This document shows positions 3,848-10,381 of a stretch of DNA of 64,000 nt, in pieces (positions within the stretch are counted from its first letter, which is position 1; each line of letters opens with the position of its first letter). Both the position numbers and the translations under genes were made by a program. Under the pieces are notes generated by a model. The model saw only the letters and a program-made list of their open reading frames with translations. It searched no databases and had not been told where the DNA came from. Source of the stretch: Effusibacillus pohliae DSM 22757 (GTDB taxonomy: Bacteria > Bacillota > Bacilli > Tumebacillales > Effusibacillaceae); contig NZ_AQXL01000123.1 in NCBI RefSeq assembly GCF_000376225.1, forward strand, positions 1 to 64,000, read 5' to 3'.

Positions 3848-4294
3848 TTACTTTTGTGGTTTCAACTGCGCATTTTCTGTCAATTTGCAAAATAGTTTCC
3901 CCACCACACCCGGGAATTTTCGGGCAAGCAAGAGATATAGGCTCGTTTGGAAATTGGGAGTTATTACAGGACGGGTGGACAAAATTTTTCCGGCGAGTTT
4001 GCGACCCACAGATTGGGGATCTGCCATGGCTTGTACGGGAATGCCTAGCGGTGCAGCCGATTTTGTATTGGTTAAGGGTGGATGCATAAGAGTGAAGCAG
4101 ATGCCGTGGCCGCCAAACTCGAGCGACAAACTTCTTGTAAGCGATTCAATCGCTCCTTTGGTCGATGCATAGCCGCTGATTCCCCGAAACCCTGTGATGC
4201 CTACCCCCGAACTTACGTTATGGATAATCCCACTGCCTTGCGCCTTCATGTACAGATTGTCTGTTTCTGCAATTTTGGTTGAGATTTTATTCAT
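3848..4294 (-). pseudogene. Truncated short-chain dehydrogenase (SDR) remnant
   Basis: A 148-residue reading frame matches only the second half of an SDR oxidoreductase. It has the NVSSG strand with catalytic serine near residue 28, YASTK with Tyr42 and Lys46, and the HPPLTNT segment. The N-terminal Rossmann half with the TGxxxGIG cofactor loop is absent; homology starts abruptly around residue 15. Family members are about 250-280 residues long. No RBS precedes the ATG. The region is AT-richer than its neighbours. The upstream edge now carries the argC promoter/operator, so the break lies at or near 4250-4295. It is probably non-functional. Confidence 0.7.
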
Positions 4295-4315
4295 ACATAT
4301 GTATAATCATTCATA
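4278..4315 (+). promoter_or_regulatory. argC promoter with paired ARG boxes
   Basis: Two 18-bp sites resemble the ArgR/AhrC box TNTGAATWWWWATTCANA: 4278-4295 and 4298-4315, with starts 20 bp apart. They lie over a good promoter: -35 TTGAGA at 4279-4284, a 17-bp spacer and -10 TATAAT at 4302-4307. Box 2 matches all but about two consensus positions and box 1 all but about three or four. The carA site (10291-10328) has the same layout. Arginine-dependent repression by ArgR is inferred. Confidence 0.68.
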
Positions 4316-7665: not shown

Positions 7666-8870
7666 GCAACACAACAAGCCAAAATCAGGCGCACATCAGC
7701 AATCCTGTCATGCAGACCTACGGCCGTTGGCCGGTGACAATGGTCAAGGGGGAGGGCGTCTGGCTGTATGATGCGGAGGGCAAGCGGTATCTCGATTTTA
7801 CGGCGGGCATTGCGGTGACCGCGCTCGGGCACGCCCATCCGGAGATCGCCCAGGCGATCGCGGAACAGGCCCGGACGCTGCTGCATTGCTCCAACCTGTA
7901 CCACATTCCCGGCCAGATCGAACTGGCGCAAAAATTGACGGAGTTGTCTTGTTGCGACAAGGTCTTTTTCTGCAACTCGGGGGCGGAAGCGATTGAAGGT
8001 TCGATCAAAATGGCCCGCCGCTACGCATATCAGACATACGGCCCGCACAAACACGAGATCATCGCGTTTGAGCATTCCTTCCACGGGCGCACACTGGGAG
8101 CGCTGACCGCCACTTGCCAGGCCAAGTATCAGGAAGGGTTCGGGCCGTTGGTGCCGGGGTTTCACTATGCAAAACCGGGTGATCTCGCGTCGGTGCAATC
8201 GCTTGTCTCTGAGAAGACCTGCGCGATTTTGCTGGAACCGGTGCAGGGGGAAGGCGGCGTACGCCCGTTCGGCCAGGAGTTTTTGGCAGCGATCCGGCAA
8301 TTGTGCGACGAGCACGGCATCCTGCTGATTTTTGATGAAGTGCAGACCGGCGTCGGCCGGACCGGGACATTTTTTGCGTATGAACAGTTGGGAGTGGAAC
8401 CAGATATCATCGCACTGGCCAAAGGATTGGCGAACGGAGTACCGATCGGTGCCGTTCTGGCGAAACAAAAGATCGCCGCTGTGATGGTGCCGGGGACGCA
8501 CGCGAGCACGTTTGGCGGCAACCCGCTGGCGACCGCCGCCGGGCTTGCCACGGTGAACATTTTGCTGCAGCAGGGAATCCTCGCACACGTGCGGGAAACT
8601 GGCCAATACCTGGCGGGAAAATTGCAGACGCTGGCAGACAAACATCCGGTTGCGCAAGAGGTGCGCGGTATGGGATTGCTGGTTGGATTGACGCTCGACC
8701 GCCCGGCTGGAGAGGTAGTGCAGGCGTGTCTGGAAAAAGGGCTGCTGCTGACGGTGGCCGGCGGCAACACGGTTCGCTTCACGCCGCCTTTGGTCGTAAC
8801 GAAGGAACAGATCGACCAGGCAGTCGAGATTCTGGATCAGGTTCTGGCAAAATTGTATCAGCCCGTTTGA
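7662..8870 (+). CDS. argD: Acetylornithine aminotransferase
   Basis: PLP-dependent class III aminotransferase converting N-acetylglutamate semialdehyde to N-acetylornithine. 402 residues. Landmarks are CNSGAEA near residue 105, FHGRT near 141, the PLP aspartate in IFDEVQTGVGRTG (about 223-235) and the Schiff-base lysine Lys254 in ALAKGLANG. It starts inside the argB stop (ATGA), indicating translational coupling. Last gene of argCJBD; a terminator-like hairpin follows at 8959. Ornithine aminotransferase is an alternative only by fold; the operon settles it. Confidence 0.96.
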   Translation: MSNTTSQNQAHISNPVMQTYGRWPVTMVKGEGVWLYDAEGKRYLDFTAGIAVTALGHAHPEIAQAIAEQARTLLHCSNLYHIPGQIELAQKLTELSCCDKVFFCNSGAEAIEGSIKMARRYAYQTYGPHKHEIIAFEHSFHGRTLGALTATCQAKYQEGFGPLVPGFHYAKPGDLASVQSLVSEKTCAILLEPVQGEGGVRPFGQEFLAAIRQLCDEHGILLIFDEVQTGVGRTGTFFAYEQLGVEPDIIALAKGLANGVPIGAVLAKQKIAAVMVPGTHASTFGGNPLATAAGLATVNILLQQGILAHVRETGQYLAGKLQTLADKHPVAQEVRGMGLLVGLTLDRPAGEVVQACLEKGLLLTVAGGNTVRFTPPLVVTKEQIDQAVEILDQVLAKLYQPV

Positions 8871-8992: not shown

Positions 8993-9122
8993 CCTATGTG
9001 GTCTGATTGCTTGTGGATGTCAAAACGGCGGCGGTGGTGCACCCGGAAACAAAGGGATAAAATTGCCGCGGCCGAATGCGCCGCAATCCAAACATCCCTG
9101 CGTCATCCGCTCCAAGCAACAA

Positions 9123-9147
9123 GGCCGCCCTTCGCAGGCGGCCCATT
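9123..9147 (-). terminator. Hairpin at the end of the acetyltransferase gene
   Basis: GGCCGCC at 9123-9129 pairs with GGCGGCC at 9137-9143. It sits just beyond the stop of the minus-strand acetyltransferase gene. The T tract is stronger on the plus strand (CATTTTC) than on the minus strand, so the efficient direction is uncertain. Confidence 0.5.
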
Positions 9148-9151
9148 TTCT

Positions 9152-9607
9152 TCACTCCATTACCCGCAACATCGCGGTTTCGTCGCAGGTCGGGAACTTG
9201 CTGCAATTGATGCAATCCTTCCATACTTTGTGCGGCAGCGTGTCTTTTGGCACGATCTGAAACCCGCATTTCAGGAAGAAGTCGACCTGGTAGGTGAGCG
9301 ACAACACGCGGGGAATTCCCAGTTGGAACGATTCCTTGACCAAGCGCGACACAAGTTCCCGGCCGAGCCCTCTCCCTTTTTTGTCCGGGGCGATCGCCAG
9401 CGACCGGATCTCCGACAGATCTTTCCACAGGATGTGCAGGCCGCCCACCCCGATGATCCGCCCGTCTTCTTCGATCACCGTCAAGGATTGCAGATTCTCA
9501 TATATCGAAATGCGCGGACGCGGCAACAGCAGTCCAAGATCCGCATTCATCTGAATCAGCTCGTAAATCGCTTCCGTATCGCCCATTACGGCTTTGCGAA
9601 ACTGCAT
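9152..9607 (-). CDS. GNAT acetyltransferase, candidate short ArgA
   Basis: 151-residue GNAT-fold acetyltransferase, cytosolic. The acetyl-CoA loop is KGRGLGREL near residue 78, preceded by LHILWKDLSEIRSLAIAP. That block and the following LGIPRVLSLTYQVDFFLKCGF resemble the short N-acetylglutamate synthases (S-ArgA type, as in actinobacteria). The C-terminal part carries CINCSKFPTC, a cysteine cluster that could bind a metal or respond to redox. It lies convergent to argCJBD and beside carAB-argFGH, so providing N-acetylglutamate to prime the ArgJ cycle is a reasonable inference. RBS is weak. Assignment as amino-acid N-acetyltransferase rests on motif memory and context. Confidence 0.72.
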   Translation of the reverse strand: MQFRKAVMGDTEAIYELIQMNADLGLLLPRPRISIYENLQSLTVIEEDGRIIGVGGLHILWKDLSEIRSLAIAPDKKGRGLGRELVSRLVKESFQLGIPRVLSLTYQVDFFLKCGFQIVPKDTLPHKVWKDCINCSKFPTCDETAMLRVME

Positions 9608-9624
9608 GGGAATCCACTCCGTAA

Positions 9625-9655
9625 ATAAGTATACAAAATTTAGTATAAGTATACA
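9625..9655 (-). promoter_or_regulatory. Direct repeats upstream of the ArgA-like gene
   Basis: On the coding (minus) strand the exact 11-mer TGTATACTTAT occurs twice, at 9645-9655 and 9625-9635, exactly 20 bp apart and just before the gene. A 20-bp period places both on the same helix face. Each copy contains a TATACT that could serve as a -10. The regulator is unknown; the sequence does not match the ARG boxes found upstream of argC and carA. Confidence 0.5.
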
Positions 9656-9850
9656 CGTAGCTGCATGTCCCGTCTACGGTTTTTTTGTGTAATGGGTGTC
9701 AGAAAATTGGCAAGCCCATTTTGTGCGGACCAGGGCGGCTGTCCATACGCCGGTTGCAAAGCGGGCGTACAATAGACCAGCACAGAATTCTGCGAGTGGA
9801 CTCAGCAAACACAAGTCCGCCGCGGAAAGAGCTAACGGGAGGGAGTACGC

Positions 9851-9985
9851 ATGTTTCCGTTTGCAGGTGCGCCCGGTGCCGGCTTCTGGGGAGGCTGGTC
9901 TTGGTGGGCGATCGCTTTTCTGATTGCGTTTATCGTATTTTTTGGCATTGCCCTGGTCGGGGCGGGATGGGCAGGTTTTCGATAG
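9851..9985 (+). CDS. Small hydrophobic membrane protein (44 aa)
   Basis: A 44-residue reading frame with a strong RBS (GGGAGGGAGTACGC before ATG) and its own terminator 1 base after the stop. The product begins MFPFAGAPGAGFWGGW and continues as one long hydrophobic segment (AIAFLIAFIVFFGIALVGAGW), so it is predicted to sit in the membrane. Size and composition recall small glycine-rich sporulation peptides such as YjcZ, but I cannot show homology. It lies between the ArgA-like gene and carA. Function is unknown. Confidence 0.55.
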   Translation: MFPFAGAPGAGFWGGWSWWAIAFLIAFIVFFGIALVGAGWAGFR

Positions 9986-10017
9986 ACCCGGTATCGGCAC
10001 CGGGTTTTCTTCTTTTT
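9986..10017 (+). terminator. Terminator after the 44-aa gene
   Basis: ACCCGGT pairs with ACCGGGT over a 6-base loop, followed by TTTCTTCTTTTT. Confidence 0.85.
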
Positions 10018-10290: not shown

Positions 10291-10328
10291 ATTGCAAATT
10301 TATTCATGTAAACGTATAATAATTCGAG
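10291..10328 (+). promoter_or_regulatory. carA promoter with paired ARG boxes
   Basis: Consensus-like promoter: -35 TTGCAA at 10292-10297, 17-bp spacer, -10 TATAAT at 10315-10320. Two partial ARG boxes cover it at 10291-10308 and 10311-10328, again 20 bp apart. Relative to the box starts, the -35 and -10 are at the same offsets as in the argC site, and the two 38-bp sites can be aligned without gaps (shared TTATTCAT and GTATAAT blocks). Individually the boxes match the consensus less well (about four and five mismatches); the shared architecture is the stronger argument. Confidence 0.65.
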
Positions 10329-10381
10329 ATGATGCATTTATATACAAAAGAGAGAGTGAATGTTTCAGGGAGGGAATCGGG

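Follow-up and report, generated by a model that had tools for sequence, protein, structure and literature searches.

A probable short N-acetylglutamate synthase gene with predicted tandem ARG boxes in the arginine cluster of Effusibacillus pohliae

The arginine biosynthetic cluster of Effusibacillus pohliae is interrupted by a gene on the opposite strand whose product resembles short N-acetylglutamate synthases (NAGS), in a genome that also encodes ArgJ, and whose promoter contains an exact direct repeat. What does this gene encode, why should it stand beside ArgJ, and which regulator reads the repeat? We addressed these questions in the window, the whole 64-kb stretch of DNA analysed here, together with the remainder of the 3.36 Mb genome and collections of related loci.

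The gene and its protein family

The features of the gene and its product are:
9152 to 9607, minus strand: argA-type gene, predicted short NAGS (NCBIfam NF005840 / PRK07757), an open reading frame of 151 aa with an ATG start
9182 to 9214, minus strand: codons C132 to D142 with the triad C132-x2-C135-x5-C141, invariant in the aligned relatives
9122 to 9144, minus strand: possible intrinsic terminator hairpin 3' of the gene, a pattern match only

The gene lies between argD (ending at 8870, plus strand) and carA (starting at about 10382, plus strand), and the cluster reads argC, argJ, argB, argD, argA (opposite strand), carA, carB, argF, argG, argH. Synteny extends to other genomes of the genus and to Alicyclobacillus, where the argA-type gene likewise adjoins argD or carA; in Alicyclobacillus loci including L007, L011, L018 and L024, argB immediately follows argC, argJ is not detected between them, and the short argA stands opposite argD. 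A separate small frame at 9852-9986 (plus strand), judged by eye to encode 44 Gly/Trp-rich, membrane-like residues behind a good ribosome site, is possibly a small membrane protein.

The protein is a full-length match to NF005840, scoring 198 bits against a curated cut-off of 154, with residues 1-150 aligned to positions 3-152 of a 153-position model, cysteine tail included. The runner-up NCBIfam models—PRK07922 (amino-acid N-acetyltransferase), PRK12308 (the ArgH(A) fusion) and classical NAGS—all fall under their own cut-offs, classical NAGS TIGR01890 reaching 64.2 bits where 202.85 are required, and Pfam returns general GNAT domains only. At 151 aa, within the range of about 150-180 aa that marks short NAGS, the product is a single GNAT domain related by descent to the NAT domain of NAGS, and it lacks a kinase-fold domain. 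A profile built from the window protein and 57 relatives (58 sequences) and searched against solved structures retrieved Mycobacterium tuberculosis ArgA (1.4e-34, 122.6 bits), then Neisseria NAGS (1.1e-23) and a Vibrio NAGS domain; GNATs of other kinds reached about 1e-8 or less significant values. Compared with solved structures, the AlphaFold2 model (mean pLDDT 94.5, pTM 0.89) matches Neisseria NAGS 2r8v best (Z 22.4, 1.7 Å over 147 residues); M. tuberculosis ArgA (5yo2/5yge) scores Z 20.7, and the first non-NAGS chain Z 18.0.

Phylogeny had been proposed as the check that might instead place the gene among unrelated GNATs. An earlier tree included eight distant paralogues, two of them with a broken frame; its branches were long and the groups could not be told apart. 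Rebuilt after five of the eight were dropped, a tree of 29 proteins separates 26 NAGS-type rows from three GNAT paralogues with support of 100/99, the Neisseria and M. tuberculosis sequences lying on long branches and the Neisseria branch carrying a warning. We therefore reject a grouping with unrelated GNATs. Since sequence profile, predicted fold and tree all place the protein with short NAGS, the original prediction of a GNAT of this type within the arginine cluster stands. The protein very probably is a short NAGS making the first arginine precursor, catalytic activity on glutamate being suggested by family, predicted fold and genomic context. The kind of enzyme is already known, and the gene is an ordinary member of a known family, probably under ordinary control.

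The cysteine triad

The cysteine triad near the C terminus, a simple and testable point, is the one part of the finding that holds real interest. C132, C135 and C141, together with K127, W129 and E143, are invariant in 58/58 aligned sequences. The cysteine cluster had been described as closing the protein; the cluster is indeed present, but since ten residues (DETAMLRVME) follow C141 it sits near the end rather than at it. C-x2-C-x5-C recurs in 90/90 loci, a figure in which the window gene is counted twice and some genomes appear in two collections. One of the six search peptides (KVWKDCIN) overlaps the motif and biases the sample, although the other loci, chosen by strong argA match, are free of that selection. 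The longer pattern W-x-[DE]-C-x2-C-x5-C-x-E is found in all 30 further loci from a phylum search, chosen by model score. Two actinobacterial short NAGS, taken from plasmid records, carry a longer, cysteine-free tail instead of the triad, and the account of the wider arg(A) alignment in PMC1382215 indicates no strictly conserved cysteine. By these alignments the triad is a hallmark of the subfamily and not special to the argA gene of E. pohliae.

In the AlphaFold2 model the triad lies in a C-terminal arm that leads from helix 126-134 to strand 144-149, where confidence falls to about 79-80 (residues 121-140), making this the least confident part of the structure. The tail peptide retrieved no relative among solved structures, its sole match up to E 10 being an unrelated Frizzled chain (0.38), and our literature search returned neither a published account of the motif's role nor literature on PRK07757. 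In the iron-sulfur loop of endonuclease III the final three ligands are likewise spaced C-x2-C-x5-C. At two Negativicutes loci (L045, L046) the frame just upstream of argA seems to end in a cysteine-rich tail that we presume to be endonuclease III-like.

We read the triad as most likely a metal site, and our guess is that this putative site braces the C-terminal arm. A further reading, which we regard as unlikely, goes beyond a brace: the triad might act as a redox or metal switch that sets NAGS activity, so that the enzyme would be controlled at another level in addition to, and not in place of, repression by ArgR. The invariance of the three cysteines and their neighbours, its extension to the 30 further phylum loci, the position of the cysteines in the least confident, C-terminal arm and the cysteine-free tail of the actinobacterial enzymes are consistent with a switch, but the same invariance fits a plain structural zinc site equally well, no fourth invariant Cys or His occurs within the listed region of the alignment, and the sample was drawn partly by a pattern that includes the motif. 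More doubtful again is the specific proposal of a NAGS subfamily in which a three-cysteine arm takes the place of the longer actinobacterial-type tail and positions a metal or [4Fe-4S] centre close to the substrate pocket. If true, arginine synthesis would depend on metal or redox state from its first step onward, with no arginine-binding kinase domain involved.

Substrate, promoter and the upstream repeat

The presence of a short NAGS beside ArgJ, at first taken as a puzzle, dissolves on comparison with other genomes. In a phylum sample of 299 genomes, 81 have an NF005840 match over cut-off, and 79 of these (counted by hand) have an ArgJ match, partial or weak in two (G170, G275); the two ArgJ-negative genomes (G313, G337) are 63 and 61% complete. 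ArgJ occurs in 135 of the 218 genomes without an NF005840 match. A strong argC match accompanies the gene in 78/81 (by hand), the remaining three genomes being 61-78% complete. Xu, Glansdorff and Labedan (2006) reported 26 species that have ArgJ, lack both ArgE and classical NAGS, and carry short arg(A)-like genes (PMC1382215). Given that report and the co-occurrence counts, the pairing of ArgJ with a short NAGS is the rule and poses no paradox, and the E. pohliae gene is a further case; ArgJ may be monofunctional, or dependent on a supply of starter.

A second count covers 61 closer genomes. A strong argA match (E below 1e-30) is present in 24 of them, all without classical NAGS over cut-off, and ArgJ is absent from seven of the 24, one of which (G003) also lacks a full argC. 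That leaves six genomes with argC over cut-off and neither ArgJ nor classical NAGS, in which the short argA is the evident source of N-acetylglutamate; such relatives are natural tests of N-acetylglutamate production by the subfamily. They also weigh against the idea that the substrate is a different amino acid or small molecule, such as glutamine, and the protein an arginine-regulated side enzyme. This idea draws on the presence of ArgJ in E. pohliae and on the M. tuberculosis short NAGS, whose reported Km for glutamate is very high and which is reported to be more active on glutamine (PMC3827942, PMC4490483); the high Km does mean that glutamate may not be the sole substrate. With the six genomes and the tight link of the gene to the arginine cluster against it, we hold another substrate in place of glutamate to be improbable, and a short NAGS acting on glutamate remains the preferred reading.

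Upstream of the gene, and of argC and carA, we distinguish:
9645 to 9655 and 9625 to 9635, minus strand: the two copies of the 11-mer TGTATACTTAT
9642 to 9655, minus strand: predicted ARG box 1, TGTATACTTATACT, 8.5 bits, including the first 11-mer copy and covering the -10 hexamer
9622 to 9635, minus strand: predicted ARG box 2, TGTATACTTATTTA, 11.4 bits, the fifth best single site in the window, including the second 11-mer copy
9648 to 9676, minus strand: sigma-70-type promoter TAGACG-17-TATACT, its -10 inside ARG box 1
10313 to 10346, plus strand: carA ARG-box pair CGTATAATAATTCG and TGCATTTATATACA, 20 bp apart, both boxes in the training set
10293 to 10306, plus strand: a weaker third carA box
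4280 to 4313, plus strand: argC ARG-box pair, 20 bp apart, a weak box at 4280 and TGTATAATCATTCA at 4300, the latter in the training set

The exact repeat is real: the 11-mer occurs exactly twice in the window, 20 bp apart and upstream of the gene as described from the sequence, and it exceeds chance, since among 2000 stretches of 120 nt simulated with local composition only 3 held an exact 11-mer repeat within about 50 bp. A genome search, suggested as a check, showed the pair (N9 between copies) to be unique even with three mismatches allowed. The repeat had been thought unlike the ARG boxes nearby, implying separate regulation, and neither point survives. Each copy makes up most of one ARG box, giving two 14-bp cores 20 bp apart, and both score as ARG boxes under a 14-position matrix trained only on twelve argC and carA promoter boxes, chosen by eye. 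Among pairs spaced 20 or 21 bp in the window, the argA pair ranks fourth at 19.9 bits, after carA (31.6 and 26.5) and argC (26.0), the next pair reaching 12.2; neither 100 simulated windows nor 2000 stretches of 120 bases simulated with local composition produced such a pair. Within the cluster no pair is weaker than that of argA, so that affinity for ArgR could be low; the 13 to 18 bits of the main argC box and of the carA pair are favoured by their use as training sites. Genome-wide, with one mismatch allowed, ARG-box pairs number 19 against one match for a control pattern, a count in which a near-palindromic pair may be scored on both strands. ArgR is encoded once in the genome (PF02863, 4.4e-30, on contig C127).

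The layout at the promoter is that of an ArgR operator, two imperfect TGNAT-N4-ATNCA palindromes whose centres stand 20-21 bp from each other. A 20-bp spacing corresponds to boxes of 18 bp with 2 bp between them, as published for Streptomyces and for the E. coli argR operator (PMC3293853), and PMC5291005 gives consensus sequences of the ARG box. Among the distinct upstream regions of argA genes, 59/85 contain a significant box pair (p<=0.03 against 100 mononucleotide shuffles of each upstream), spaced exactly 20 bp in 43 of the 59; the 26 without one are mostly from outside the Bacilli. In 33/85 the same promoter arrangement recurs, with a -35 identical or close to TAGACN and a -10 of the form TATAnT. 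Two side observations concern the neighbouring operators. Upstream of carA, three ARG-like boxes stand in 20-bp phase (10293, 10313, 10333) where two are usual. The argC boxes (4280-4313) overlap the apparent start of a divergent frame of 148 aa (3848-4294, minus strand) that by eye resembles a short-chain dehydrogenase without its N-terminal part and is perhaps a remnant.

That the repeat is instead the operator of a separate regulator, independent of ArgR, is a reading which its uniqueness in the genome and rarity by chance might favour but which we reject as very improbable, because relatives in the genus lose the exact repeat (box 2 becoming TGTATATTCATTTA, TGCATATTCATTTG or TGCATATTCATTAG) yet keep a pair of ARG-like boxes at a distance of 20 or 21 bp, further relatives have a near-canonical box 2 (for example TGAATATTTATTCT), the boxes are spaced as they are at carA and argC, and such a pair was absent from the simulations. 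The supposed unknown regulator is thereby removed, and the repeat looks like a tandem ArgR operator whose two boxes happen to agree. As ARG box 1 covers the -10 element, ordinary repression by ArgR is the best explanation.

We accordingly favour, with considerable confidence, a short single-domain NAGS (S-NAGS, arg(A)/argX type) repressed by ArgR through two predicted ARG boxes; binding at 9622-9655 is predicted from the box sequences and their conservation. The gene would be transcribed from its own minus-strand promoter, and ArgR with arginine would bind both boxes, the first on the -10 element, shutting the gene off together with argC and carA. When expressed, S-NAGS would transfer the acetyl group of acetyl-CoA to L-glutamate and so supply or replenish what ArgJ would then recycle between acetylornithine and glutamate.

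Comparison with known systems

Within NF005840 (PRK07757) the window protein is a full-length member that differs in nothing essential. With the M. tuberculosis short NAGS (Rv2747 ArgA, PDB 5yge and 5yo2) it shares a single GNAT domain, the LHxLWxDLxEIR and LTxxxxFF segments and the fold, but the profile match to that enzyme stops ahead of the C-x2-C-x5-C arm. The argX/arg(A) group similarly comprises short arg(A)-like genes alongside ArgJ without classical NAGS, whereas its alignment, as presented in PMC1382215, lacks the strictly conserved cysteines of which the PRK07757 subfamily has three. The C-terminal NAT domain of classical ArgA and of ArgH(A) fusions is a homologous GNAT domain, and PRK12308, the ArgH(A) model, also gives a weak match (E 0.0028) to the cysteine tail; those proteins, however, have an amino-acid-kinase or ArgH partner domain, and the window protein has neither. 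In its control region, finally, the gene shares with the tandem ARG boxes of ArgR/AhrC systems two imperfect palindromes, 20 bp apart, that overlap the promoter, while its outer half sites are imperfect and its half site reads TGTAT where the B. subtilis and E. coli consensus has TGAAT.
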